DNA of 64,000 nucleotides, taken from Sulfurimonas autotrophica DSM 16294 (GTDB lineage Bacteria; Campylobacterota; Campylobacteria; Campylobacterales; Sulfurimonadaceae). Both the position numbers and the translations under genes were made by a program. Positions 16,833 to 55,545 of the stretch are shown here, piece after piece (positions within the stretch are counted from its first letter, which is position 1; each line of letters starts with the position of its first letter). Location: assembly GCF_000147355.1 (NCBI RefSeq), contig NC_014506.1, forward strand, positions 372,001 through 436,000. Direction: 5' to 3'. The notes beneath the pieces were generated by a model. That model had not been told where the DNA came from. It saw nothing but the letters and a program-made list of their open reading frames with translations, and made no database searches.

Positions 16833-18182
16833 TTGGCCATTGCCTTGGCACTTTATACTAAAAATATTATGCTCTCTTTATTTGGCGGAATATTTTTAGG
16901 GCTTTTTTTCCTACATGACTTTTCTGTAATTGCAGCGGTGAACTCCACATTTGAACTGTTTTTTTCTCTTTTGAGTGAAGCCTGGATACTTAAAACCTTA
17001 GCCTTTGCAGTCTTGGTAGGCAGTGTGATGGAACTGATGCAAAAAAGCGGAGGTATCAGCGGTTTTGTCTCTTTTATGACACAAGAAACTGCACTGGTAA
17101 ATTCTCCTCGTTCGGCTTTACTGGTGAGTTATTTTATAGGTGTCATTATTTTTATTGAATCTTCTATAACCTCTCTTATCGCTGGAGCCGTCGGTAGACC
17201 GCTTTGCGATAAAGAGAAAGTTCCGCATGCAAAACTGGCCTTTGTGTGTGACTCCACCTCGGCTCCTATCAGTTCTTTAATTGTTCTTAACGGATGGGGT
17301 GCACTGCTGCTCGGACTTATTGCAACACAGGTGCAAACAGGAATAATATCAGGCGATAATGTCAATATTTTACTGCACAGTGTTGCTTATAACTTTTATG
17401 CTGTGAGTGCTTTAATCGTCACTTTTTTAGCTGTGTGGTTTAACATAAATATAGGTCCGATGAAGAATGCAAAACCCTCTTTAGACAAAGCTTCTTTACA
17501 TGTAAACTCTAAAGTCAGTATGGCATATATGATAATTCCAATATTTTTGATGATTACATTTGTATTTATGTTTTTGTATATAACAGGCAAGGGCGATATG
17601 TTAAAGGGAAGTGGTTCTAGTTCTATCTTTTATACTATGCTTGCCACGCTGATGGTGATGTTTATTTATTACATAGGCACAAAAAACATGTCCGCAAAAA
17701 CCTACACAAAAAGTGCCTACATCGGAGCAAAAAAACTTTTTCCGATTGCTATGATACTGCTTTTTGCTTTTGCAATAGGGGAAGTGACCGTTGATTTAAA
17801 AACAGGGCAGTATTTGGCTTCGCTTGCAAGTGACAACCTCAGTGTGTTTCTTTTAAGCGGTGTGATATTTTTACTCAGTAGTATTATTTCATTTTCTACA
17901 GGAACATCCTGGGGTACTTTTAGTATTATGATACCTATTGCCGTACCGATGGCTGTAGGCATGGATACAGATGTAGCTTTGGCTATAGGAGCCGTCATCA
18001 GCGGCGGTGTTTTTGGAGACCACTGTTCACCCATTTCTGACACGACCATCATATCATCACTCGCAAGTGACTGTGAAGTTGTAGAACATGTTAAAACACA
18101 GCTTCCTTATGCTCTTATAAGCGGAGCTGTCGCACTTGTTTTGTTTATAGTTTTCGGATTTACGACTCTAAATAATAGTTGA
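16833..18182 (+). CDS. NhaC-family Na+/H+ antiporter
   Basis: At least 449 residues with about eleven membrane segments. NhaC-type phrases include FIESSITSLIAGAVGRPL, VCDSTSAPISSLI, FSTGTSWGTFSIMIPIA and GGVFGDHCSPISDTTI. It exchanges sodium for protons. The TTG at 16833 has no ribosome site, and coding-like sequence (ELSFLSVFPSL) runs upstream in frame to ATA 16797 and ATT 16794, preceded by AAGG at 16786-16789. The true start is probably one of these rare codons. Its 3' end overlaps the convergent exonuclease gene by 23 bp. Confidence 0.88.
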   Translation: MAIALALYTKNIMLSLFGGIFLGLFFLHDFSVIAAVNSTFELFFSLLSEAWILKTLAFAVLVGSVMELMQKSGGISGFVSFMTQETALVNSPRSALLVSYFIGVIIFIESSITSLIAGAVGRPLCDKEKVPHAKLAFVCDSTSAPISSLIVLNGWGALLLGLIATQVQTGIISGDNVNILLHSVAYNFYAVSALIVTFLAVWFNINIGPMKNAKPSLDKASLHVNSKVSMAYMIIPIFLMITFVFMFLYITGKGDMLKGSGSSSIFYTMLATLMVMFIYYIGTKNMSAKTYTKSAYIGAKKLFPIAMILLFAFAIGEVTVDLKTGQYLASLASDNLSVFLLSGVIFLLSSIISFSTGTSWGTFSIMIPIAVPMAVGMDTDVALAIGAVISGGVFGDHCSPISDTTIISSLASDCEVVEHVKTQLPYALISGAVALVLFIVFGFTTLNNS

Positions 18183-18903
18183 TGGAATAACGCAAATCTT
18201 CATCAATATTTTCCATATTTTTAAGCATCCATCTCAAATAACCGGCATCTTCGCGGGCCACTTCTTCAAGACTTTTTCCTTTGTGCTTTCCAAATCTGAA
18301 TGTTTTGACCAAAATTGGTGTATTGGTTAAATCGACCATCTTTTCAACCGGGTTTTCATTTGGAAACTGTGCTTGGACGATGTCTTTTAGTTTTGAGAGA
18401 AAGAGTTTTAATACAAGTACGTCACCAATGGCATCATGGGCTTTTACAACGATACCGAGCGCTTTCGCCTCTTTTTCTTCATCTTTATAAAGTTCCATTT
18501 TATAGCGAAAATATTGAAGTCTGTGAGCCTCTTCATCCGGCATAACATGTTTTGCAACTCTAAGGGTATCTATAACTTTCATCTGTGTTTTAAAACCCTC
18601 TTTTTCAAGCATAGTAATATCAAAAGGTGCATTATGAATAATGAGATAATTCTCCGACGTGTTCAGCTCTAAAAGTCTTTTATATGCCACCGTTTCCACA
18701 CAAGGTGGTTTGCCTTCAAGCAAATCAGGTGTAATACCGTGGACTTCCATAGCACCGAACTTAATCGCTACATCAGTTGAACAAAACTCATTGTGAACCT
18801 CTATCTCTTTTGCTCCCAAGACCATGTATCCAAGCTGGATGACTCTGTCTTCTTCATTTGTGCCCGTTGTCTCCGTATCTAAAATCACATATTGTTTTGC
18901 CAT
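18160..18903 (-). CDS. DnaQ-like 3'-5' exonuclease with DUF3820 tail
   Basis: 247 residues. The DEDDh exonuclease motifs are seen: DTETTG near 8-13, HNAPFD near 88-93 and HDAIGD near 153-158. A C-terminal block (about 200-245) with FRFGKHKGKSLEEVAREDAGYL is the DUF3820 type, sometimes found fused to exonucleases. It may proofread or process nucleic acid ends. A TATAAT-like box (ATTATA on plus at about 18932) lies about 30 bases before the ATG. Confidence 0.85.
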   Translation of the reverse strand: MAKQYVILDTETTGTNEEDRVIQLGYMVLGAKEIEVHNEFCSTDVAIKFGAMEVHGITPDLLEGKPPCVETVAYKRLLELNTSENYLIIHNAPFDITMLEKEGFKTQMKVIDTLRVAKHVMPDEEAHRLQYFRYKMELYKDEEKEAKALGIVVKAHDAIGDVLVLKLFLSKLKDIVQAQFPNENPVEKMVDLTNTPILVKTFRFGKHKGKSLEEVAREDAGYLRWMLKNMENIDEDLRYSINYYLES

Positions 18904-21076: not shown

Positions 21077-22471
<1,395 letters not shown>

Positions 22472-22475
22472 GCAG

Positions 22476-24281
22476 ATGAAAATGCTTCATTATTGGCTGG
22501 AATTTGAAGAGAGTATGGGCAAAGTATGGGATAAATATCTCAACAAAAAAGTCCATAAATTTCATGAAGACAAAAGAGTCTATTTTGAAGATATTTCTAA
22601 GCCTTTACATATTTTTCACCGCCTTATGGGTGGTGAAAAAGCAAAAGAACTGCAAATCACCGACAAAAGATATGTCGAAACTTCTAGAACACTCTTAGAA
22701 AAGATATCGTTTCTGGGTAAAGAGTTTTTTTTAACATGGCAGGATGAAGAATCTGTTTATCTGCCTGCATCATTTGCATACTTTTCTACAAAGCAAGAGA
22801 ATGAAATGCTTTACTATTGGCTTATAGCTATGGCAGCACAAATAGAGAATGTTACAAACAATAGTTTTATAGAGAAAAATCAACAGGCTATGTACTACCT
22901 CACAAAAAGATACAGTGGATTTGACGTTTTTTACAAGAGTGCAAGTCAGTATTTAATGGATAAATATGAACAATTATCATTTCTTAAATCTTTAGATGAA
23001 CAATCAAATCAAGATTTAATAGATGATTATCCAAATCCTTTGTGGATATATCCGCCCTCGATTACACTGAGTTATGCGAACAATGTTGACAGCGGGGATG
23101 AAGAACTAACAAGAGAAGAAGACAAAGATAAGTCTGAAGAACTGCATATGAAAAAGCAGGCGAATCAGATTGACGATAAACATGAAACAGACGGCTTTTT
23201 GGCTTTTTTACCTGAATCTTTGATGAGCATCTTTGAACAGGTAAATGTAGACAGATGTGAAGATGACAGCTTTGATGAAGATGCGCTTTATCATGCTGAA
23301 GATTTAGATGAGATAACAGTCGGACAAAAACAGGCAAATCTCTCAGCGCGTATTAAAATGGACTTGGAACTTTTACCTGACAATACAGTAACTTATCCGT
23401 TAGGCAAAGGTCATTTTGTAGATGAGTGGGATTATAAAAGACAAGATTATTTGCTAAAATATGCTCGTATTTTACCGCAGGTGACACTCAATGTTATTCC
23501 CATAGAACTGCCTAGGCGACTGAAAAAAACTGTAAAAAAAATTCAGGGTGAACTTGACCTTTTACAACTTGACCGCATTAAAAACGACCGTTTGCCTTAT
23601 GGTGATGAGCTCAATATGGATAGCTGGATAGAGTATATGTCGCATCAAAACAAGTCAATGCATCATCAAAACTTCTACACTACATATGAGAAAAAAACAC
23701 GGGATATGTCCACATTGCTTTTAGCTGACATCTCACTCTCAACAGAAGGTGGCATAACTCAGGAGCTGCGTATTATTGATGTTATCAAAGACTCATTGAT
23801 GGTCTTTAGTGAGGCCTTGGAAAAACTCGAGGATAAATTTGCAATTTATACTTTTTCTTCACTGCAAAACAAAAAGGTCTATTTTAACATCATAAAAAAC
23901 TTTAAAGACAAGTATGATGCGTTGATACGGGGAAGAATAGAGAGTATAAAACCACAATACTATACCCGAATGGGAGCTGCCATTCGTGAAAGTGCAAAGA
24001 TTTTAGATAAACAGCAAAGTGCAAATAAACTGCTGCTCATCATAAGTGACGGTAAGCCAAATGATGAAGACAGATATGACGGGCGTTATGGTATTGAAGA
24101 TACAAAAAAAGCACTCCAGGAGATAAAGAAAAAAGGAATTACTCCTTTTTGTATTACGATTGATTTAGATGCTAAAGAGTATTTGAATTATCTTTTTGGT
24201 CAAAATGGTTATGCCATTGTACGTGATGGACAAAAATTGCCAAAAGTACTGACAGAAGTCTATATAAATTTAACGAAATAA
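22476..24281 (+). CDS. norD: NorD-type VWA activation protein
   Basis: 601 residues. A long, poorly conserved N-terminal half is followed by a charged linker (about 205-260) and a C-terminal von Willebrand A domain with metal site DISLS (near 415) and later LLIISDGKPND. NorD works with the NorQ ATPase to insert iron into NorB. Here norD precedes norQ, the reverse of the common norCBQD order. Confidence 0.9.
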   Translation: MKMLHYWLEFEESMGKVWDKYLNKKVHKFHEDKRVYFEDISKPLHIFHRLMGGEKAKELQITDKRYVETSRTLLEKISFLGKEFFLTWQDEESVYLPASFAYFSTKQENEMLYYWLIAMAAQIENVTNNSFIEKNQQAMYYLTKRYSGFDVFYKSASQYLMDKYEQLSFLKSLDEQSNQDLIDDYPNPLWIYPPSITLSYANNVDSGDEELTREEDKDKSEELHMKKQANQIDDKHETDGFLAFLPESLMSIFEQVNVDRCEDDSFDEDALYHAEDLDEITVGQKQANLSARIKMDLELLPDNTVTYPLGKGHFVDEWDYKRQDYLLKYARILPQVTLNVIPIELPRRLKKTVKKIQGELDLLQLDRIKNDRLPYGDELNMDSWIEYMSHQNKSMHHQNFYTTYEKKTRDMSTLLLADISLSTEGGITQELRIIDVIKDSLMVFSEALEKLEDKFAIYTFSSLQNKKVYFNIIKNFKDKYDALIRGRIESIKPQYYTRMGAAIRESAKILDKQQSANKLLLIISDGKPNDEDRYDGRYGIEDTKKALQEIKKKGITPFCITIDLDAKEYLNYLFGQNGYAIVRDGQKLPKVLTEVYINLTK

Positions 24282-24290
24282 GGAATAATT

Positions 24291-25082
24291 ATGTCACAAA
24301 CTTACTACTTACCCCAATCAAATGAGGTGGAACTCTTTAGTGCTGCCGCGCAGATGAATCTGCCTGTTTTAATCAAAGGGCCGACAGGATGTGGAAAGAC
24401 ACGATTTATTGAGTCTATGGGCGAGCAACTTGGTCGTGATGTTTATACCGTCGTATGTCATGATGATTTGAGTGCGGCAGATTTGGTCGGTCGCCATCTT
24501 ATAAGTGAAAAGGGTACTTATTGGCAGGATGGTCCGCTTACAAAAGCTGTACGAAACGGTGGGATTTGTTATATTGATGAGATTATCGAGGCTAGAAAAG
24601 ATACTACTGTTGTACTACATTCTCTTGCTGATTATCGTAGAGTATTGCCAATAGACAGAACAGGAGAGGTAATAGAAGCGCATCCTGATTTTATGCTTGT
24701 CGTCTCTTATAATCCCGGATATCAAAATGTTCTTAAAGGGATGAAACCAAGTACAAAACAGCGTTTTATCTCTTTGAGCTTTAACTATCCTAAACCGGAG
24801 ATTGAAAAAGAAGTACTGATAAAAGAGAGTGGCGTTAATGCACAGACGGCACAAAAACTTGTAGATATTGCAAGTGAAATTAGAAGCTTGGACGATACCG
24901 ACATTCAAGAAGCAGTATCAACGAGACTGCTTATTTATGCAGGAAAACTCATCACAAAAGGGTTTGATCCTTATCAGGCATGTATGCACTCTATTGTAGA
25001 ATCTTTAAGTGATGAGGAAGATGTTCTTGAAGTGCTGCAAAAGCTTATAACACTTCATTTTGCAAAGAGTAGTGATGTCTAA
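24291..25082 (+). CDS. norQ: NorQ/CbbQ AAA+ ATPase
   Basis: 263 residues. Walker A GPTGCGKT at 30-37, Walker B ICYIDEI near 92-98 and a C-terminal CbbQ-type domain. MoxR-clade chaperone that activates nitric oxide reductase together with NorD. AAGGAATAATT precedes the ATG. The stop overlaps norE by 8 bp. Confidence 0.95.
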   Translation: MSQTYYLPQSNEVELFSAAAQMNLPVLIKGPTGCGKTRFIESMGEQLGRDVYTVVCHDDLSAADLVGRHLISEKGTYWQDGPLTKAVRNGGICYIDEIIEARKDTTVVLHSLADYRRVLPIDRTGEVIEAHPDFMLVVSYNPGYQNVLKGMKPSTKQRFISLSFNYPKPEIEKEVLIKESGVNAQTAQKLVDIASEIRSLDDTDIQEAVSTRLLIYAGKLITKGFDPYQACMHSIVESLSDEEDVLEVLQKLITLHFAKSSDV

Positions 25083-28403: not shown

Positions 28404-28409
28404 TATAAT
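28404..28409 (+). promoter_or_regulatory. TATAAT box six bases before an ATG (leaderless start)
   Basis: GTGTATAATTTGCATATG: the -10 hexamer ends exactly six bases before the ATG at 28416, leaving no room for a leader or ribosome site. Confidence 0.65.
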
Positions 28410-28415
28410 TTGCAT

Positions 28416-29660
28416 ATGAATTTACAGGATTTAAAAAATACAACTATATTACTGCTTGGAAAGAGCAGGGCATTTAGCGAAGATGAGTTTTTCTCACAGC
28501 TAAAGTTTCATAACATCTCAATAGCGCAAGAGACGGGTGATGATGTACGTTTCATTGTAGAGGGACGTATGATGAGTCCTTATGAGCAAAATATGAGTGA
28601 TGCATTTTATGAGGAAAAAAGATATGAATTTATAAATATAGATGTTTTCGAAAAGCTTTTAGCACAAGAGATAGATAATGATACACTGCTTATGAGTCTG
28701 AAACTCTCAAATGACAAGATGCGACTTAAAAGTTTTATACAAAACAGCTGTATTGACGATACTCTTTTTTTCAAACTTTTAAAAATGTACTCATTTGAGG
28801 GCGAAGATTTTTTTGAAAATGATGACAACCGCGATGTCTCCGCCGCGCTTATCGGCAGATTTTATGAAAATATAGAGAGAAACCATAATGTGCAGTATGC
28901 TACAACGGGCATTTATCATCTTATAGCACAAACTGACAATGAGCAGCTTTTAGAGGCAATAGCACAGCTTACACCTGCTCTACAACATCCAAAAATCATG
29001 AAAGCACTTGCGATGCATGAAAAAACACCGAGAAGTGTGCATAAAATATTTTTAAAAAAAGGTGATGACTCGGTAAAAGAGGCAATGGCTTATAATGCTA
29101 ATTTAGATAAAAGCATAATACACGAACTGATAAAATATGAAGATTTGGCAGCCGTCGTGGCGCAAAACACCAAACTTGACGATGAGTTGTTTGGGTTTTT
29201 AAGCGCATATAAAACTTTTTTGGCAGCGAATGAAACACTTAGTGAGGTCATGCAGCAAGAACTTTTTAGTTTAAATGAAGAACAAGTGCATCTTGCTTTA
29301 GCGCAAAATAGAGGTTTACATGTAAGTATATGCAAACTCTTGTTACATGTAAAGAGTGAGGAAATAAAAAAAGCATTATATATAAACCGTGCAACACCTG
29401 TAGATATTTTACAAAATGCGTATAAAGAAGGTGGGTACAATGAAGCATTGAGTGCAAACAGTGCAACACCTCAAAGTATTTTACAAGAGCTTGCACAGAG
29501 TCAAGACGAGAAAATTCTTTATAATCTGGCAAAAAATGAGAACACACCGGTTGATATTTTGTATCAGCTGCAGCTTGACAGCCGTTTTGAGCGTGCGGTA
29601 AAAACAAATGAAGCCTTTGGAAAATATATACAGAGTCAAAATATAGGATGGTTAGTATGA
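28416..29660 (+). CDS. alpha-helical repeat protein (LRV-like)
   Basis: 414 residues from the ATG at 28416, selected because the TATAAT box lies within the longer frame. There is no signal peptide. The C-terminal half contains about seven helical repeats of 22-25 residues with the pattern N-x-x-T-P-x-x-I-L (NRATPVDIL, NSATPQSIL, NENTPVDIL), like leucine-rich-variant repeats, which bind partners. The N-terminal 150 residues are not recognised. It is co-translated with a MoxR ATPase through an ATGA overlap and so is probably its substrate receptor or target. Confidence 0.75.
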   Translation: MNLQDLKNTTILLLGKSRAFSEDEFFSQLKFHNISIAQETGDDVRFIVEGRMMSPYEQNMSDAFYEEKRYEFINIDVFEKLLAQEIDNDTLLMSLKLSNDKMRLKSFIQNSCIDDTLFFKLLKMYSFEGEDFFENDDNRDVSAALIGRFYENIERNHNVQYATTGIYHLIAQTDNEQLLEAIAQLTPALQHPKIMKALAMHEKTPRSVHKIFLKKGDDSVKEAMAYNANLDKSIIHELIKYEDLAAVVAQNTKLDDELFGFLSAYKTFLAANETLSEVMQQELFSLNEEQVHLALAQNRGLHVSICKLLLHVKSEEIKKALYINRATPVDILQNAYKEGGYNEALSANSATPQSILQELAQSQDEKILYNLAKNENTPVDILYQLQLDSRFERAVKTNEAFGKYIQSQNIGWLV

Positions 29661-30652
29661 GAGCAGGAGAATTAAGTCAGGCACTACAGGCACTTGTGCT
29701 GCAAAAAGTGCCTACGTTTTTGTGGGGAGCACCGGGGATTGGAAAGTCATCTATCGTCAAGCAGATTGCACAGGAAAATGATTTGGATTTCATCGATTTG
29801 CGTTTGGCGTTGATGGACCCGACGGATTTAAAAGGCATTCCTTTTTATGATAAAGAATCACATACCGCACTCTGGGCGCCACCGGCATTTTTGCCGCGTG
29901 AAGGCAGAGGCATATTGTTCTTAGATGAACTTAACTCCGCAGCACCAGCCGTACAGTCTTCGGCATATCAGCTTATACTTGACAGGCGTGTAGGTGAGTA
30001 TGAACTGCCTGATGGCTGGGCAATTGTAGCAGCCGGAAACCGTGAGGGCGATAGAGGTGTGACATACAGAATGCCCGCACCGCTGGCAAACCGCTTTGTG
30101 CATTTTGAGCTTGAAGTGAGCGTGGATGATTGGCGGGAATGGGCGTATAAATACGGGCTTGACAGCAGAATTATTGCCTATATCAGCTACAAAAACGAGC
30201 ATCTTTTTACTTTTGATGCAAAAAACGAGAGCAAAAGTTTTGCAACACCGAGAAGCTGGGAATATGTCGGTAATATTTTAAAAAGTTCTCTTGCGCAGGC
30301 ATTGCTGCTAGATACTATAAGCGGTGCCGTAGGGCGTGACGCGGCTGTTTCATTTTTGAGTTTTTTAAAAGTTATGGACAGACTGCCTGATATTGAGACG
30401 ATACTCAATGGAGAAGATTTTACTTACGGTGAAGAGGTAGATGTTTTATATGCTCTGAGTTCAGGCATTGTGAGTCATTACCTGCAAAACCCTAGTTCGC
30501 AGCGTCTGGAAAATCTACTGTGTTACACGCTCGAACTCAAAGGAGAATTTGCCGTTATGATTGCACAGGATCTACAGCGCGCAGGCATTACAATGGAAGG
30601 CTCAGAGGTCTTTAAAGAGTGGGTGAGAAAGTTTTCTTATCTTTTAGAGTAG
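29657..30652 (+). CDS. MoxR-family AAA+ ATPase
   Basis: 331 residues from the ATG overlapping the previous stop (ATGA); an ATG nine bases upstream is the alternative. Walker A GAPGIGKS at 24-31, Walker B LFLDE at 87-91, sensor motif AAGNRE. MoxR ATPases act as chaperones with VWA partners, and such a partner follows 19 bp downstream. This is a second AAA+/VWA pair in the window beside NorQ/NorD. Confidence 0.9.
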   Translation: MRAGELSQALQALVLQKVPTFLWGAPGIGKSSIVKQIAQENDLDFIDLRLALMDPTDLKGIPFYDKESHTALWAPPAFLPREGRGILFLDELNSAAPAVQSSAYQLILDRRVGEYELPDGWAIVAAGNREGDRGVTYRMPAPLANRFVHFELEVSVDDWREWAYKYGLDSRIIAYISYKNEHLFTFDAKNESKSFATPRSWEYVGNILKSSLAQALLLDTISGAVGRDAAVSFLSFLKVMDRLPDIETILNGEDFTYGEEVDVLYALSSGIVSHYLQNPSSQRLENLLCYTLELKGEFAVMIAQDLQRAGITMEGSEVFKEWVRKFSYLLE

Positions 30653-30671
30653 GAAGCTTTTCAAAAAGAAT

Positions 30672-31817
30672 ATGCAAAACACAGAAAAGAAAATATCTCA
30701 GGCAAAAGCAAAACTCTTAGTAGATTATCCCTATTTTGGGACGCTTGCTTCCAAAATTTCGGTTGTTATAAATGACGATATAGAAGCATTTAAAAATGAT
30801 GGTCAAAACCTTGAAATCAACAGTGATTATCTGCAGAATTTAGAACTCTCAGAAATGGAGTTTGTTTTTGCCAACGGAGCGATGCATACGAGTCTGGCTC
30901 ATGAGATGCGAAAAAACAACCGCAGCGGATGGCTGTGGCAGATGGCCACCGATATGGCAGTCAATGATATGCTTGTGCAAAACGGTCTTGATATGCCTTA
31001 CGGTGCACAGTACAGAGAACGCTTCAGCGGCATGTATGCCGAAGAGATTTATGCCGAGCTCAAAGATGATATCCTGCGTGATGATGAAAATTTGGAATAC
31101 GAAGCTGATGATGTGGATGACGTACAACACAGTGAGAACGAAAAAAATGATGAAAAGCAAAACAACCAACAGACACAACAGGAACTAGAAGAAGAAATCC
31201 TGCAAGAGCAGCTTTTTGCCCAAGAAGCCATTAGCCTTTTAGAATCTAAAATGCAGACAGGTGAAGCACCGGCAATGATTGAACGTTTCTTTCAACTGAA
31301 GGACTTTGGAAAAATTGACTGGCGAAATGAGCTGAGGGTTGCACTTGATAAATACTTCAGAGATGACTATGTAGTGATGCCGCCGTCAAAAAAGCTGCTT
31401 TACAGCGGAATTTATCTGCCCTCAAATGTTTCTCAAACCTTTCGTCTTGTTATTGCAGTTGACAGCTCAGGTTCTATTGACGAAGTGCTTTTAAATGAGT
31501 TTTTGAGTGAAGTTAATTTTTTGATGACCTTGGTGCAAAATTATCAAATAGAGCTTTTAGTCTGTGATGAAAAAATTCGCTCACATAAAACTTTTTACAG
31601 CGGAGATGTGTTAGAAGTTGATGTAAAAGGCGGTGGAGCAACAGATTTTCGTCCGGTATTTCATTTTATAAATGAGAATTTTGATGATGTGAAACTACTT
31701 TTGTATTTTACAGATTTAGACGGAGCTTTTCCTCAAAACAGACCAGAATATGAAGTAAAATGGGTGAGCGCAAATGGACAAGAAATCCCTTTTGGAACTC
31801 TTGTAAAACTGGATTAA
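30672..31817 (+). CDS. VWA-like / metallopeptidase-like protein (DUF2201 type)
   Basis: 381 residues. The N-terminal part carries a zinc-peptidase-like block (H72, HE at 77-78, then WQMATDMAVN) typical of DUF2201 N-domains. A charged linker (about 135-185) rich in Asp, Glu and Gln follows. The C-terminal VWA-like domain has DSSGS near 262. Such proteins pair with MoxR ATPases. The stop overlaps the convergent regulator by 4 bp. Confidence 0.85.
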   Translation: MQNTEKKISQAKAKLLVDYPYFGTLASKISVVINDDIEAFKNDGQNLEINSDYLQNLELSEMEFVFANGAMHTSLAHEMRKNNRSGWLWQMATDMAVNDMLVQNGLDMPYGAQYRERFSGMYAEEIYAELKDDILRDDENLEYEADDVDDVQHSENEKNDEKQNNQQTQQELEEEILQEQLFAQEAISLLESKMQTGEAPAMIERFFQLKDFGKIDWRNELRVALDKYFRDDYVVMPPSKKLLYSGIYLPSNVSQTFRLVIAVDSSGSIDEVLLNEFLSEVNFLMTLVQNYQIELLVCDEKIRSHKTFYSGDVLEVDVKGGGATDFRPVFHFINENFDDVKLLLYFTDLDGAFPQNRPEYEVKWVSANGQEIPFGTLVKLD

Positions 31818-33148: not shown

Positions 33149-34417
33149 ATGAATTACATGGATCTAATACTTGATAAACTACACAATAAACAAAACGTTT
33201 TTTTAACCGGCGGTGCGGGTGTTGGAAAAACCACTATTACAAGAGAGATTATCAAGCAGTATGAAAGCGAAGCCAAAAAAGTTGCCAAGCTTGCCTCAAC
33301 AGGAATGGCAGCAACACTGATAAACGGGCAGACACTGCACAGCTTTTTTGATCTTGGAATCGCTTCAGATGTAGAAGAACTGCAAAACAATGCAAAATAC
33401 GAAATCAAAAAAAAGATAAAAAAACTCATATCGAGTATGGATTTAATCGTCATAGATGAAATTTCTATGGTGAGTGATACGCTTTTTGAGATGATAGAAC
33501 TGCGTTTGAATCAGGCAGGATTTAGCGGTTCGCTACTGGTCGTAGGTGATTTTTTACAGCTTCCTCCGGTTGTCCGCGGTTACGGTGAAGTCAAGTTTGC
33601 TTTTGAATCGCCTTCATGGAAAAATTTTGCCTTTGAAAAAGTAGAGTTGACGCATATCTACAGAACGGATGATTTGCGTTTTATAGAACTTTTACATGCG
33701 GTACGATTTGGAACTATTAATGAAGCAGTACATAATCAACTCAATGAATTTATAAAACCTCTGCCAAATGATCTGAGTCAGTTTACATTTTTGTTCGGAA
33801 AAAATATTTCGGCTACAAAACATAACAAAACCCAGCTCGATTTTATAGACGAGGCTTTACATGTAAAGGAAGCACAGGTCGTAAAACACCTTAAATCAAC
33901 ACAAGACAAAGAAGTAGAGCGTTTTATGGATGATGCAAGAATAGATAAAGAACTTGCATTAAAAGTTGGCGCTCCGGTGCTTTTTACACGCAATTCATGG
34001 AACTATTTTAACGGAGAGCGCGGTGTTGTCGTGAATGTGGATGCAAGTTATGTATATGTGCAAAAGAGTGATGGCAAGGTTGTCAAACTCGAGCCGACTG
34101 CCCAAAGTAAAGCACAATGGAAAGAAAAAAGCGTCGAGGGAAAAAAAGAGATGGTTGAAGAGAATATTTTTACCGTGTATCAGTTTCCAATCAAGCTTGC
34201 TTTTGCCATAACTATACATAAATCGCAGGGAATGAGCATAGAAGATTTAATTATTGACACGAATGAAATTTTTGCACCCTCACAATTTTATGTAGCACTT
34301 TCACGTTCATCAAACCCTGCAAGACTAACGCTCATCGCACCAAGTAAACAATGGTATGATTTGGCATATGTAAACCCAAAAGCTATGATATTTACTCAAA
34401 AAGAGCAAAGTTGTTGA
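33149..34417 (+). CDS. Pif1/RecD-like DNA helicase
   Basis: 422 residues, superfamily 1B. Walker A GGAGVGKT at 21-28, motif II VIDEISMV near 103-110, GDFLQLPPV motif III and the C-terminal AITIHKSQGMS and YVALSRS motifs. A 5'-3' helicase for replication or repair intermediates. It lies divergent from the double-receiver gene and overlaps the next gene by 7 bp. Confidence 0.9.
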   Translation: MNYMDLILDKLHNKQNVFLTGGAGVGKTTITREIIKQYESEAKKVAKLASTGMAATLINGQTLHSFFDLGIASDVEELQNNAKYEIKKKIKKLISSMDLIVIDEISMVSDTLFEMIELRLNQAGFSGSLLVVGDFLQLPPVVRGYGEVKFAFESPSWKNFAFEKVELTHIYRTDDLRFIELLHAVRFGTINEAVHNQLNEFIKPLPNDLSQFTFLFGKNISATKHNKTQLDFIDEALHVKEAQVVKHLKSTQDKEVERFMDDARIDKELALKVGAPVLFTRNSWNYFNGERGVVVNVDASYVYVQKSDGKVVKLEPTAQSKAQWKEKSVEGKKEMVEENIFTVYQFPIKLAFAITIHKSQGMSIEDLIIDTNEIFAPSQFYVALSRSSNPARLTLIAPSKQWYDLAYVNPKAMIFTQKEQSC

Positions 34418-49398: not shown

Positions 49399-50637
49399 TT
49401 ATTTTGCTAAGTCAACCATATTCCACATAGGCAGAAAAATACCAAGTGCTAGAACCATGACAAAACCGGCGATAGCAGCTATGAGAATAGGCTCTATGAG
49501 TGTTGCAATATTATCAACTATATAATCAAATCTATCTTTATAGATTTTTGTGATTTTGTTGAGCATCTTGTCAAGTCCGCCGCCGATTTCACCGGCTTTT
49601 ATCATCTCTACTATCATATTTTCAAATACTTCTGTCTTTTCAAAACCTTGATAAAGACTCTTTCCTTCTTCTATTGATGTAGAAATTCTCTTTATTTTTT
49701 CTTTAAGATAACTGTTTTCTATTATATCAGAAGCTATATTAAGAGCTTCTAACATTGGTATGCCCGCATCAACCAAAACTTGAAACACATACATAAATCT
49801 GCTTATCATTGCATTGAGTGTTGCCTTGCCTAATATATATATTTTTAACATCAATTTATCAAGATATAGTCTTACTTTTTCACTTCTTTTATATAATATA
49901 TTTATAAATATTGATAAAATGACGGCAGAAACTATGATGTAAGGTCCATAAACAATTAGTGCATGCTCTATCCACAATAAAAATTGAGTCGGCAGTGGTA
50001 ATTCCATATTTGATTGTTGAAAAAAACTTTTAAATTGAGGTACAACAAATATAATAACAACTGAAAATGCTATACCCATGGCAAATATAATAATAAGCGG
50101 GTATCTTGTAGCTTTTTGAAACTTCTTTCTATTGTCTATAATATTTTGCAAAATAGATGTTAAGTGGGAAACAGATTCAGAGAGTCGCCCTGTTTCTTCT
50201 CCTAATTTAAACATAGAAAGGGTTATAAAGCCTAATTGTTCTTTAAATGTTATTGCTGAATTATATAAACTTTTACCTCCTTCAATATCATTATTTATCT
50301 TAGTAAATATAGCTTTTATCATTTCATCATTTTGATTTTTTACAGCTTCTGCCAAAACATAATTAAGAGGCAGTCCGGCATCAAGCATGATGGCAATCTG
50401 ATCAAGGATAGCTATGAGTTTTTCAGTATCGACCTTTTTATTTTTTATAGGATTTTTAAATTTATTTACATATTGACCAAAAGCTATTTTTAATGGTTTT
50501 GAAATCTCTTGAATCCTAATTAAAACACCTATTTTCATCTCATAAAAATTTTGCATTGCTGAAATTTTATTTTCAGCTTCTAATACTATAGAATCTTTTT
50601 TCTTTCCAATTTTATAATTTATTCTAAAGTATTTCAT
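49399..50637 (-). CDS. mshG: pilus inner-membrane platform protein (GspF/MshG)
   Basis: 412 residues with two repeated T2SSF domains (about 75-195 and 278-400), each followed by membrane helices. Phrases such as LDAGLPLNYVLAEAV and VDAGIPMLEALNIASDII are typical. Platform for the pilus motor. It starts 2 bp after the ATPase gene. Confidence 0.93.
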   Translation of the reverse strand: MKYFRINYKIGKKKDSIVLEAENKISAMQNFYEMKIGVLIRIQEISKPLKIAFGQYVNKFKNPIKNKKVDTEKLIAILDQIAIMLDAGLPLNYVLAEAVKNQNDEMIKAIFTKINNDIEGGKSLYNSAITFKEQLGFITLSMFKLGEETGRLSESVSHLTSILQNIIDNRKKFQKATRYPLIIIFAMGIAFSVVIIFVVPQFKSFFQQSNMELPLPTQFLLWIEHALIVYGPYIIVSAVILSIFINILYKRSEKVRLYLDKLMLKIYILGKATLNAMISRFMYVFQVLVDAGIPMLEALNIASDIIENSYLKEKIKRISTSIEEGKSLYQGFEKTEVFENMIVEMIKAGEIGGGLDKMLNKITKIYKDRFDYIVDNIATLIEPILIAAIAGFVMVLALGIFLPMWNMVDLAK

Positions 50638-50639
50638 AA

Positions 50640-52319
50640 TTACCTATCCTTTGTAATTCTCAATACTTCTTCTACAGTTGTTATACCTTTTAGAGCTTTT
50701 TTGATTCCATCTGCTATCATAGGTTTATATAGTCCGTTTGATTCTGCATACTCAATTATAGCTATTTTGTTTGCATTTTCTGATATCATTTTTGCCAATA
50801 CAGTATCTATAGTTAATATTTCTGATATCATGGTTCTATTGAAGTAGCCTGTAAAATCACATTTGGAACATCCTTGCCCTGTATAAAACTTTATTTCAGG
50901 ATTAGATAAATATTTTTCAATTTTGCTTAATTGCGCTTTTGTAAGTTTAATCTCATTTTTACAATACGGACAAATTTTTCTAACAAGTCTTTGTCCTACA
51001 ATTCCAACTAATGCATCAGCGATTAAATAAGGTTTTAATCCCATTTGAATCATTCTAGGGATTGCTCCCGGAGCATCATTTGTGTGCAGAGTTGTAAATA
51101 CCAGGTGCCCTGTCAAAGCAGCTTGTGATGCAGAATTTAATGTTTCAAAATCACGAACTTCCCCAATGAGTATAATATCGGGATCTTGTCGTAAAAAAGA
51201 TCTTACAGCCAATGAAAAAGTTAATCCTGTTTTTTCATTTATTTGAATTTGCTGCACAAGCGGCAATCTGTATTCAACAGGGTCTTCTGCTGTCATTACT
51301 TTATTTGAAATATTTTTTATCTCATTTAATGCTGCATAGAGTGTGGTGGTTTTACCACTTCCTGTAGGCCCTGTGATAAGCACTATTCCATTTGGAGAAT
51401 GAATAAAATCCATAAAATTATCTAAATTTTCATCTTCAAAACCTAAATCTTCTAATTTTAGAAGAACTTTGTCACGATCAAGTATCCTCATAACGATTGA
51501 CTCACCAAATATTGTTGGTGTCGTTGAAAGTCTGAAGTCATAATTTTTTTCATTAATAACAAGACTAAATCTACCATCTTGAGGAATTCTTTTTTCTGAA
51601 ATATCCAAATTTCCTAAAAGTTTTATTCGTGAAGAGAGAGCATTATATATTTCACTATCAAAAACAAAATTTTCATGAAGTATCCCATCTATTCTTGAAC
51701 GAACTATCATCTCTTTTTCATCCGGTTCTATATGTATATCACTCGCTCTTTTATTGATGGCTTCTTTTGCTATGAATAAAATAAGCTTCATAATAGCACT
51801 ATTTTCATCCTCTTTTTTTAAGCCTTGTGTTGTTAACTCTTTTTTTACTTCAGAAATAATTTCTCTAGTAGTTTGAAGTATTTTTATCCGATGAAAAATT
51901 ACATGTATATCATCACTGTAAGCCAAATAAATTTTGACCGGTTTTATAGATATTGTTCTTTCTAATGCTTCTAAAGCATCATAATTTAAGGGGTCGCTTG
52001 TTGCAATATAAACAAAGTCTTCATCTTCTTTAAAAGGTATAGCCTGAGCAGCTTGGAGTATATGCAGGGGGTATTTTGTAGCGATTGCATTAAAATTTAT
52101 ATTTTCGCCGTAAAGATCAACAAAATCTATATCTAATTGTTTAGATAAGGTTTTTAGTAAATCTCTTTGGGTTACATATCCTTCAGCTATAAATATTTCA
52201 CCTAATTTTTTAGTGTAATTTAACTCTTTTTGTTTTTTTAAAGCTTCGTTAAGTTGATCTTTAGTTATAAAATCATTTTTTATTAATATATCACCTAATC
52301 TTACTTTTCTTTGTATCAT
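50640..52319 (-). CDS. mshE: pilus assembly ATPase (GspE/MshE)
   Basis: 559 residues. N-terminal MshEN-type domain (about 5-150) that in MshE binds c-di-GMP, then the ATPase core: Walker A GPTGSGKTT near 318, Asp box, Walker B ILIGEVRD, and a zinc site C-x2-C (CPYCKNEI) plus C-x2-C (CSKCDFTG). It powers pilus extension. Several c-di-GMP enzymes occur in the window, which fits this control. Confidence 0.94.
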   Translation of the reverse strand: MIQRKVRLGDILIKNDFITKDQLNEALKKQKELNYTKKLGEIFIAEGYVTQRDLLKTLSKQLDIDFVDLYGENINFNAIATKYPLHILQAAQAIPFKEDEDFVYIATSDPLNYDALEALERTISIKPVKIYLAYSDDIHVIFHRIKILQTTREIISEVKKELTTQGLKKEDENSAIMKLILFIAKEAINKRASDIHIEPDEKEMIVRSRIDGILHENFVFDSEIYNALSSRIKLLGNLDISEKRIPQDGRFSLVINEKNYDFRLSTTPTIFGESIVMRILDRDKVLLKLEDLGFEDENLDNFMDFIHSPNGIVLITGPTGSGKTTTLYAALNEIKNISNKVMTAEDPVEYRLPLVQQIQINEKTGLTFSLAVRSFLRQDPDIILIGEVRDFETLNSASQAALTGHLVFTTLHTNDAPGAIPRMIQMGLKPYLIADALVGIVGQRLVRKICPYCKNEIKLTKAQLSKIEKYLSNPEIKFYTGQGCSKCDFTGYFNRTMISEILTIDTVLAKMISENANKIAIIEYAESNGLYKPMIADGIKKALKGITTVEEVLRITKDR

Positions 52320-53245
52320 TTATTATTCCACTTTGATAATATTTTATTAACTTCTGAAGAATTTTCAAATTGACTATATATAGTTAATATTTTTTTAGCC
52401 TTTTTTTTATCACCTAAGATGTATAATGATTTTGCATATATTATCCAAGATTTATCATCTGTTTTATCGATGCTGTTTGCAGTTTTTGACCATTTGACTG
52501 CATTTTTATAGTCTTGTATATGATAATAATGTTGTGCAAGTTTCAATGCAATATTGTAGCTTTTTCTTTCTTGAAAAAGCTTTTTGAGATTTTCTATATT
52601 ATACTTTTGAGATTTAAGAACAAAATTATTTTTCTCTATCTTTTTGTTTTGTTTTACAATTGTTTTTTGCTTTACGATTGCTTTAGGCTTTTTAAATGTT
52701 TTTTTTGCTTGAATCACCTTAGGTTCTTTATTGGTACAGATTACTTTTTTAATTATATATTCCAAATTATTTTTATCAGCCAATTTCTTTGAGTGTAAAA
52801 ATTCATTATAGTTTTTTGTTTTATTGCATCTGAGATATAATAGCTGTTTTCCTTTATGAACATAACACGTAAAACCGAGCTTTTCTATTTTTTCTTTCTT
52901 TTTATAAAGATATTTTGCATTGAATTTCCTAGCGATAAAAAATTGTAAATAATAGCATTCATTTTTCTTTATAATTTGTTTCTTTTTATGCTGAATGCTT
53001 TTACTGTTTTCTTTTGTTTTGTCTTTCTTTTTTTTCATGACAACATCTTTTTTTATAACAACATCTTTTTTAATGACAACATCTTTTTTTACAATCGAAG
53101 TTTTTTTTGTTTTAAAATTATCACTATAAGAAAGAAAAATATAGATGCTCGCAGATAGAATTACAACAACAGGTATAATAGCAAACAGATATTTTTTCAA
53201 ATGATAGATTTTACATTTTTTTTCCAGCATATCAAAATTATACAT
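52316..53245 (-). CDS. mshN: MshN-like membrane protein with SPOR-like and TPR regions
   Basis: 309 residues. One membrane helix (about 20-40), a basic linker with three to four copies of VKKDVVIKK, a middle region with paired Cys that looks SPOR-like (CYYLQFFIARKF), and C-terminal TPR-type helices (WIIYAKSLYILGDKKKA). The ATG at 53245 overlaps the upstream stop; a second ATG at 53230 lies six bases after TATAAT. Role in pilus assembly inferred from gene order. Confidence 0.75.
   Translation of the reverse strand: MYNFDMLEKKCKIYHLKKYLFAIIPVVVILSASIYIFLSYSDNFKTKKTSIVKKDVVIKKDVVIKKDVVMKKKKDKTKENSKSIQHKKKQIIKKNECYYLQFFIARKFNAKYLYKKKEKIEKLGFTCYVHKGKQLLYLRCNKTKNYNEFLHSKKLADKNNLEYIIKKVICTNKEPKVIQAKKTFKKPKAIVKQKTIVKQNKKIEKNNFVLKSQKYNIENLKKLFQERKSYNIALKLAQHYYHIQDYKNAVKWSKTANSIDKTDDKSWIIYAKSLYILGDKKKAKKILTIYSQFENSSEVNKILSKWNNK
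53037..53093 (-). repeat. 18-bp tandem repeats in mshN
   Basis: On the minus strand, GATGTTGTTATAAAAAAA-like units recur three to four times in frame, giving the VVIKKD repeats. Poly-A runs inside each unit make slippage possible. Confidence 0.7.
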
Positions 53246-54029
53246 CTATAAGCCCGCCCTCTATTGCAGCCATGGTTAAAATACATTTAGAAAGTTTTTG
53301 ATATTTATGCTTATGATTATTTTGTGCATAATTTAGTAGTAAAAACGCAGTATGCAGCATTTTTTTAAATTCTCTAAAGTTCCCCTTAGTATTTTTGTAA
53401 ATAAAATTTAAATATTTGAAACTTAATTCTTCTAGCAAATACGGCTTATTTATATCTTTTAATTTTAAATATATATAATCTTTGTATTCATTTTTCTGCA
53501 GATGATTTAATTCTAGTATTTTGTGTGGTCTTGATGAAAATTGCGGTGCATTTAAAATGTTTTTTGATTCATGTTTATGCATAACAAGAATAAACCAAAA
53601 TGCTTTTGAATCTGCCAGTATTCTTATAACTTCAATCATATCTTTAGATAGTAGTTGCGCTTCATCTATAATAACAACATAATTTGAATTTTTATATATT
53701 GAAACAACTTGTTTAATAAGTCCCTCAATTGAAAAATCTTTAACTTCTTCTTTACTTTTTTTTATAAGTGTTTTTATAAAATCAACAGGTTCCAAAAAAG
53801 GTATATCAAATTTTATAATATTAATATTTTCATTATTTTCATTTTCTAAATGATTAACAAAAGCACTTTTCCCTACTCCGGGTTCCCCTATTAAAAAAAT
53901 TAACTGTTTTGTGTCATTCTTAAAAATATTTAAAAGATTGTTTTTTAAATGCATTGTTTCAAAGCTTTCGAAAAAATTCATCTCTTGCGATTTTTCTTCA
54001 AAAATTCGTGATATTTCCAAATAATCCAA
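53238..54029 (-). CDS. mshM: ExeA/MshM-type AAA ATPase
   Basis: 263 residues from a TTG start. Walker A GEPGVGKS at 48-55, Walker B YVVIIDEAQLL near 114-124. ExeA-family ATPases help place or assemble secretins. It sits between the secretin and mshN as in Vibrio. Confidence 0.88.
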   Translation of the reverse strand: MDYLEISRIFEEKSQEMNFFESFETMHLKNNLLNIFKNDTKQLIFLIGEPGVGKSAFVNHLENENNENINIIKFDIPFLEPVDFIKTLIKKSKEEVKDFSIEGLIKQVVSIYKNSNYVVIIDEAQLLSKDMIEVIRILADSKAFWFILVMHKHESKNILNAPQFSSRPHKILELNHLQKNEYKDYIYLKLKDINKPYLLEELSFKYLNFIYKNTKGNFREFKKMLHTAFLLLNYAQNNHKHKYQKLSKCILTMAAIEGGLIDV

Positions 54030-54030
54030 T

Positions 54031-55545
54031 TTACTTAACCTTTGATGAATTAAAATCTAATTTATATTTTGAAGTTGAAAAGAATTTATCATCATCTATA
54101 TCATCAATAGTCGGCATAGATGAATTTTTAACAATTTTCGGTGTTATTAAAATGAACATTTCTGTTCTGCTTTTCTTGTTATTAGTATATCTAAAAATAG
54201 TGCTTAGTATCGGAATGTCTCCAAGAATTGGTATTTTTTTTGAGTCTTTGCCTTTTGTAGCACTTATTAGTCCGCCGATAAGTACCTTTTGTCCGTTTTT
54301 AACTTTTACAACAGATGTCATTTGTTTAATCTTTGTATCAGGTGGAATTTCTCTTATGCTGGTTGTAGGAGTATTGTCCGCAGAAAGAGAACTTACAACA
54401 GGATTAATACTCATAAGTATTTCATTGCTATCGGTAATTTCCGGTATTACATATAAAGTGATGCCTATAAATGTCGAGCCGAGAGAAAAGGTATTTGTAC
54501 CCGCAGCAGTGCCGCCCGTTGTAGTAACTGATCCTGTTTGATATTTATAACTTAACTGCTGGCCGACATTTACAACTGCAGGTTGATTATTCATAGTCAA
54601 AATTTTTGGATTTGACATAACTTTGACATCACCGAAAGTATTTAAGTATTTAAAAAAATTGGATGTTGAAAAATTATAAGCAATACTATAAGAATTATTA
54701 AAAGTGTTTCCACCGGTGCCTTGTGTACCACCTAACGTACCGTTTAAAGATACATTTAACTGACTCCAGTCAATTCCCGAAGAGTGACTGTCATCATAAA
54801 CAAGCTCTATTAATTTAACTTCTATTAATACCTGTTTATGCATTCTTTTCATAAGCAGGTCTAAAAAGTTTTGTATTTTTTGCAAATCTTTTTTATCTGC
54901 ATTTACGGTTAGCAGTGATGCATCTCTATTTATAAACATATTTACATTTTTTGGATCAAGAAAAAGTTTTGTAAGATTGTTTTTTAAGTTATCCCAAAAC
55001 GTAAATTTTGATTTTGTTACTATTGTTGTCTGGTCATTTGATGAACTGTTTCCACTGCTATTATTGGTATTATTGGTATTATTGGTATTATTGGTAGTAG
55101 TATTATTGGTAGTAGTATTTATTCCGGAAGAACTGCCGGAACCTGAATTTATCGATTTGCTGCTCTCACTGGTTAACTCGCTAACATTTATATAATCAAT
55201 ATTAAAAGTTTTTGTTTTCATATATTGTACATTTATAAAATGTTTTTCTCTGTCATATGTATAAAATAAATTTGCCTCATTAAATAAAAAATTTAAAAAA
55301 CTTTCTAATGTATAATCTTTTATATTAACATAATCAAGGCTTTTATTTATTTTTTGTTTAGATTCTTTATCTTTAAAAAAGATTGATATATTACATTTTT
55401 GAGATAATTCTTTTAGTACGTTAGAAATTTTTAAACTTTTGCTCCCTTTATCATAGGCACTCAACGAGAAAAGATGCTCATCACAATTATTTGTATTTGC
55501 AGTTAGAATCCGTGTAAATATAAAAAATATGAATATATATTTCAC
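54031..55545 (-). CDS. mshL: secretin (MshL/PilQ type)
   Basis: 504 residues from GTG. Signal peptide ends LTANT. N-terminal STN-like domain (about 20-110), a low-complexity Asn/Thr linker (about 128-172), N-domain and secretin core with VGQQLSYKYQTG, VIPEI and VKVKNGQKVLIGGLI. Outer-membrane gate for the pilus. Confidence 0.93.
   Translation of the reverse strand: MKYIFIFFIFTRILTANTNNCDEHLFSLSAYDKGSKSLKISNVLKELSQKCNISIFFKDKESKQKINKSLDYVNIKDYTLESFLNFLFNEANLFYTYDREKHFINVQYMKTKTFNIDYINVSELTSESSKSINSGSGSSSGINTTTNNTTTNNTNNTNNTNNSSGNSSSNDQTTIVTKSKFTFWDNLKNNLTKLFLDPKNVNMFINRDASLLTVNADKKDLQKIQNFLDLLMKRMHKQVLIEVKLIELVYDDSHSSGIDWSQLNVSLNGTLGGTQGTGGNTFNNSYSIAYNFSTSNFFKYLNTFGDVKVMSNPKILTMNNQPAVVNVGQQLSYKYQTGSVTTTGGTAAGTNTFSLGSTFIGITLYVIPEITDSNEILMSINPVVSSLSADNTPTTSIREIPPDTKIKQMTSVVKVKNGQKVLIGGLISATKGKDSKKIPILGDIPILSTIFRYTNNKKSRTEMFILITPKIVKNSSMPTIDDIDDDKFFSTSKYKLDFNSSKVK
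55059..55119 (-). repeat. 9-bp tandem repeats in secretin gene
   Basis: ATTATTGGT units recur about six times, in frame, giving the NNT/NTT-rich linker. Copy number could change by slippage without shifting the frame. Confidence 0.8.

Follow-up and report, generated by a model that had tools for sequence, protein, structure and literature searches.

The window analysed here is a stretch of 64,000 nucleotides from the complete 2.15-Mb genome of Sulfurimonas autotrophica DSM 16294 (contig NC_014506.1, positions 372,001 to 436,000), and on its forward strand it carries three closely packed genes that encode, in order, a helical-repeat protein, a MoxR-family AAA+ ATPase, and a VWA protein of the DUF2201 family (Table 1). 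A first-pass annotation, made from the letters of the window, had placed the MoxR start inside the stop codon of the repeat gene and the VWA gene 19 bp past MoxR, and both statements are exact: the MoxR ATG at 29657 overlaps the repeat-gene stop as ATGA (an alternative in-frame ATG lies at 29648), and a gap of 19 nt separates the end of the MoxR stop codon at 30652 from the VWA ATG at 30672.

Table 1. Features of the three-gene unit and of other genes considered in the window (window coordinates).
Feature	Position	Strand	Remarks
TATAAT -10 element, putative promoter of a leaderless mRNA	28404..28409	+	ends 6 nt before the repeat-gene ATG
Repeat gene (gene 1)	28416..29660	+	ATG 28416, stop TGA 29658-29660; product 414 aa; adaptor candidate
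Predicted BRCT-like domain, residues ~1-85	28416..28670	+	strand-helix-strand-strand-helix-strand-helix (AlphaFold)
Predicted LRV solenoid, residues 171-369	28926..29522	+	repeats of ~21-26 aa, Asn ladder, variable copy number
MoxR-family AAA+ ATPase gene (gene 2)	29657..30652	+	331 aa; Pfam AAA_3
DUF2201 VWA gene (gene 3)	30672..31817	+	381 aa; degenerate zincin-like N-domain and C-terminal VWA domain
PIF1-like helicase	33149..34417	+	syntenic neighbour, not a core part; Pfam PIF1 1.8e-30
DEDD (RNase_T/ExoX-like) exonuclease	18160..18903	-	possible associated gene; Pfam RNase_T 2.8e-16
NorB-like COX1	21086-22471		
NorD-type VWA protein	22476-24281		
CbbQ/NirQ/NorQ_C protein	24291-25082		

Homologues were drawn from relatives, from a genome-collection scan (80/130 relatives), and from a sample of 298 Campylobacterota genomes. 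MoxR was the next gene on the same strand in 107 of 115 distinct full-length repeat genes, with three repeat genes at contig edges and five not adjacent to MoxR, and in most of these loci the two genes either overlapped or lay no more than about 20 nt apart. The VWA gene followed downstream in 86 of these 107 loci (within 250 nt in 69, with inserts in 17); eight loci ended at a contig edge, and in 13 the VWA gene was not adjacent. Within the phylum sample, 39/298 genomes had the repeat gene, all 39 of them had MoxR, and 38 had the VWA gene, while MoxR was found without the repeat gene in six genomes, five of which were nifK positive with paralogous pairs and one of which gave a partial match. 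Fisher P values calculated for this co-occurrence take no account of phylogeny. The opposite pattern, a repeat gene occurring mostly without MoxR and VWA, was looked for and was not what these genomes contain; adjacency and co-occurrence support the earlier view of a tight three-gene unit, with the repeat protein as a true member. The unit in Sulfurimonas usually occupies a fixed site, flanked by nhaA at one end and, at the other, by genes for a response-regulator/GGDEF protein and a PIF1 helicase.

The locus also shows decay and insertion in individual lineages. One genome (G013, locus L073) had lost the repeat and MoxR genes and carried a split VWA gene, and in another (G245) the VWA gene was the sole remnant of the module found. 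Unrelated inserts recurred at the MoxR-VWA junction (L053, L061, L089, L099, L117, L121, and L200), among them an EcoRI-type methylase with GmrSD/HNH, a type III methylase, and, twice, nucleotidyltransferase/HepT-like pairs, one of which was confirmed by Pfam. A ferritin-like gene (172-173 aa) lay between MoxR and VWA in L049, L051, L053, L060, and L120. Family f4 (L067, L069, and L209) had an ankyrin-like repeat gene (~165 aa) upstream of the repeat gene and, in two of the three loci, a DinB-type polymerase gene downstream on the opposite strand.

The key sequence motifs of both partner proteins are intact, and the first-pass reading of the two as a MoxR-VWA pair is supported. The ATPase matched Pfam AAA_3 above the cut-off (E = 2.8e-8), while the bpMoxR Pfam model stayed below it, and Walker A, the Walker B motif ILFLDE, R146, and R199 were kept in 27/27 aligned homologues. 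The VWA protein matched DUF2201_N (1.9e-27) and DUF2201 (7.1e-21) in Pfam, its VWA domain being C-terminal with no extension beyond it in the Pfam domain layout, and the residues of its metal-ion-dependent adhesion site (MIDAS; D264, S266, S268, T324, and D348) were invariant in all 75 family members. The structural model of this protein matched VWA domains, including the MIDAS domain of MDN1 (8ql1), which is itself an AAA+ machine; a smaller part of the model matched selecase (4qhi), a metallopeptidase. The HExxH motif was present in 0/75 Campylobacterota VWA proteins (NGAMH, for example, stands in its place), versus 3/3 phage homologues examined. From the selecase-like match and the lost motif it follows that the N-domain has retained a peptidase-like fold but not the motif needed for catalysis; the description "peptidase-like" thus holds for the fold and fails for the catalytic motif, and the label "putative metallopeptidase" should not be used for this branch.

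The repeat protein from the window, taken alone, gave a sub-threshold match to Pfam LRV_2, and among 98 homologues 53 matched LRV_2 (best 3.2e-14) and 26 matched LRV. An AlphaFold model made with these homologues had a mean predicted local distance difference test score of 94.9. Foldseek matched its solenoid to the LRV crystal structure 1lrv (probability 1.00) and its N-domain to 2ebu, the RFC1 BRCT domain (probability 1.00, template modelling score 0.52, 3.1 A), with weak E-values over the whole chain (0.035 and 0.014). The homologue matches to LRV and LRV_2 and the 1lrv fold match confirm that this is a helical LRV-like repeat protein, as first described; when its profile was searched against PDB sequences, no significant match was returned. 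The order of secondary structure elements in residues ~1-85 is that of the BRCT beta-alpha-beta-beta-alpha-beta-alpha fold, and the BRCT domain of LigA aligned colinearly with the repeat-protein profile over 72 columns (hhalign probability of 18.8%, versus at most 0.9% for six controls). The window protein had no match to Pfam BRCT, and this family was also missing from the 25 listed for the 98 homologues. Residue 14, which we take to correspond to the canonical phosphate-binding Thr/Ser at the end of BRCT strand 1, is F, L, or V in 98/98 homologues, so that the phosphate-binding residue is not kept. The N-domain is therefore termed BRCT-like here and not a proven BRCT domain, and the model predicts a protein composed of this domain and an LRV-type helical solenoid.

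The solenoid was the least conserved region of the protein, with an entropy of 2.07 in the closer homologue subset compared with 0.52-1.45 elsewhere, and protein lengths clustered near 388, 414, and 450 aa, consistent with copy numbers that differ by roughly one repeat. Because the solenoid evolves fastest, the earlier suggestion that the repeat partner recognises the target is plausible. Short LRV-type proteins of ~200 aa, corresponding to the solenoid part only, occur in many Campylobacterota (G009, G011, G016, G030, G336, L210-L212, and L221, among others), with no MoxR of the module's family within the loci fetched.

The repeat gene looks leaderless, judging from the spacing of its promoter and the conservation of that spacing. 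An exact TATAAT ended 5-7 nt upstream of the ATG in 76/99 repeat-gene homologues, and at exactly 6 nt in 58, a spacing that would place the first transcribed base on or close to the ATG; this supports the leaderless start first proposed from the window. Among the comparison genes, TATAAT lay 4-9 nt upstream of the start in 1/62 MoxR and 2/75 VWA genes, and it preceded some early ATG in 41 of 472 open reading frames at these loci, repeat genes counted in, about half of the 41 being repeat genes. No Shine-Dalgarno-like motif was found upstream of most repeat-gene homologues. In several relatives the orthologue of the PIF1-like helicase gene also had TATAAT a few nucleotides upstream of an early ATG, suggesting that this gene may be leaderless there too.

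Two further MoxR-DUF2201 branches occur in the phylum, both only in genomes with nifK (15/15), and their MoxR proteins, ~55% and ~40% identical to that of the window, are its closest paralogues (L070, L071, L072, L074, L076, L077, and L234-L253). Several of the pairs are located within nif regions, where their neighbours are nifK (TIGR01286, E = 1.6e-236), NifQ, or a nitrogenase-associated protein resembling TIGR01616. Members of the family can thus be linked to a single, particular enzyme system. The more distant branch is usually followed by the helical protein c12 (~235 and 187 aa), for which Pfam gave no match above cut-off. In a MoxR tree, the repeat-linked sequences did not form one clade, those of family f4 being sister to one nif branch; the repeat partnership may therefore predate that branch, although the phage sequences form very long branches and the rooting is unsure. 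Nitrogenase was considered as the client of the window module and rejected, as the S. autotrophica genome lacks nifK, and so do 24 of the 39 module-bearing genomes, showing that the module does not depend on nif.

Our results make it probable, though by no means certain, that the three genes encode a non-proteolytic, ATP-driven MoxR-VWA remodelling machine, with the repeat protein serving it as a dedicated adaptor or as the subunit that recognises the client. The three proteins would form one complex, and the outcome of its activity would be the remodelling or maturation of a client rather than its degradation. By analogy with NorQ/NorD, the MoxR hexamer would supply the force and the VWA protein would use its MIDAS metal site to couple the MoxR ring to the client; the repeat protein, whose synthesis would keep pace with that of the ATPase, may choose or hold the client. 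NorQ/NorD remodels cNOR, for which the VWA MIDAS is needed and touches the client, and the NorD-type VWA protein binds the MoxR ring, with a VWA finger modelled into the pore (PMC9976466). Several observations weigh against this proposal. The operon is not obligatory, since G042 and several genomes of family f6 have the VWA or MoxR gene at a separate site. No copy of the repeat gene stands next to the nif-linked paralogues, and c12, considered as a possible homologue of the LRV repeat protein, was rejected, as hhalign gave no homology between them. Finally, the rapid divergence of the solenoid could mean weak constraint instead of recognition.

Two kinds of client can be considered for the proposed remodelling machine. 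The module might mature a metalloenzyme as NorQ/NorD does and the nif-linked paralogues may do, with a respiratory or metal enzyme as the client: many of the known clients of MoxR-VWA pairs are metalloenzymes (PMC9976466 and PMC4240915), the close paralogues are confined to genomes with nifK, and ferritin-like genes are found between MoxR and VWA in the loci given above. However, no metalloenzyme gene is among the conserved neighbours, the genome itself is without nifK, and nothing in the adaptor points to such an enzyme, so that we regard this client as conceivable but doubtful. The other candidate is a DNA replication or repair complex, to which a BRCT-like adaptor would recruit the MoxR-VWA ring, acting with a DEDD exonuclease and the PIF1 helicase. 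Beyond the BRCT-like domain, the case for it comes from gene order: 21 Sulfuricurvum-type loci have a co-directional RNase_T/ExoX-like exonuclease gene upstream of the repeat gene (within 100 nt in seven). The co-oriented order in these lineages is exonuclease, repeat gene, MoxR, VWA, and PIF1 helicase, and in seven loci (L144, L150, L152, L156, and L192-L194) the helicase gene overlaps the VWA gene by 8-26 nt or starts 8 nt away. Sulfurimonas retains the helicase nearby, directly adjacent in L061 and L113. The array is a weak hint of DNA metabolism and not proof, since the helicase occurs in 171/298 genomes, of which most have no copy of the module; as it is also unlinked to the module in other genera and families, its link with the module may be inherited gene order. 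With the phosphate-binding residue of the N-domain replaced in every homologue as well, a replication or repair client seems rather unlikely. The full version of this idea, a three-subunit ATP-driven machine whose BRCT-like/LRV adaptor, made from a leaderless mRNA, directs the MoxR-VWA ring to replication or repair complexes, with the exonuclease/helicase clustering of sister lineages taken as part of the picture, we consider improbable.

The first-pass annotation had offered a chaperone or a conflict-system module; the MoxR-VWA machine is supported, and the conflict role is not. A relative of the MoxR-vWA ternary systems, acting in biological conflict against phages, would have the layout seen here, MoxR and VWA with a rapidly diverging third component (PMC7159879). 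The module of the window, however, lies at one syntenic chromosomal locus in Sulfurimonas; nothing follows the VWA domain in its VWA protein, which thus has no fused effector; its third component is none of VMAP, iSTAND, FtsH, or beta-propeller; PADLOC gave only marginal matches, to the AAA core; and the repeat gene had no match in 50,697 phage records and two weak ones in 72,556 plasmids. Together, these findings make a conflict role very unlikely. An ATP-dependent protease, in which the DUF2201_N domain would cut proteins fed to it by MoxR, could draw on the Pfam description of DUF2201_N as a putative metallopeptidase, on the resemblance of the model to selecase, and on the HExxH motif kept in phage relatives, but with this motif missing from 75/75 Campylobacterota members we find such an activity scarcely credible. 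A pilus/type II secretion-like cluster (T2SSF, T2SSE, secretin, and AAA_22) at window positions 49399-55545 is unrelated to the module.

MoxR-VWA machines are widespread, few of their clients are known, and client choice is poorly understood. A co-inherited, separately encoded adaptor would offer a handle for finding the client, and a comparison of the module with the nitrogenase-linked branches could reveal how a single remodelling engine acquires new targets.

Several known proteins and systems resemble parts of the module. The Azotobacter LRV protein (1LRV) has the same type of repeat, with a structural match of high probability; its N-domain is an Fe-S domain, and the window protein differs in its BRCT-like N-domain and its location in a MoxR-VWA operon. 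Phage MoxR/DUF2201-VWA pairs (PHROG 1297/1314; e.g., Thermus phage phiFa) belong to the same families (E of 3e-100 and 1e-70), but the phage VWA proteins examined retain HExxH, unlike the window family, and a homologue of the repeat protein is absent from the phage records. Many phage records (e.g., H2, H3, H5, and H7; PHROG 1314) label these DUF2201-VWA proteins HNH or homing endonucleases; the label seems to be a mistake, as those examined carry HExxH and VWA-like domains. The nif-region paralogues differ from the module in their restriction to nifK genomes, in having no LRV gene beside them, and in their other helical neighbour, c12. The ternary conflict systems share the three-component layout with MoxR and vWA but have a third component of their own (VMAP, iSTAND, FtsH, or beta-propeller), variable VWA effectors, and a patchy distribution, all of which the window module lacks, and DUF2201 and LRV are not among the terms of the main text describing them (PMC7159879). 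In the open-licence literature searched, we found no account of this module, nor of a MoxR-VWA machine with such an adaptor, although a description elsewhere is possible; within that literature, the repeat partner is as unusual as first judged. The closest functional parallels are NorQ/NorD, a second pair that the first-pass annotation had correctly located in the same window (21086-25082, with a NorB-type gene), and CbbQ/CbbO. In these, too, a MoxR AAA+ gene stands beside a VWA gene, with intact MIDAS and ATPase motifs, whereas the window MoxR has no CbbQ_C match, its VWA partner has a DUF2201 N-domain, and the unit contains an extra BRCT-like and LRV protein; in the literature searched, this adaptor candidate is probably an undescribed addition to the known MoxR-VWA type.

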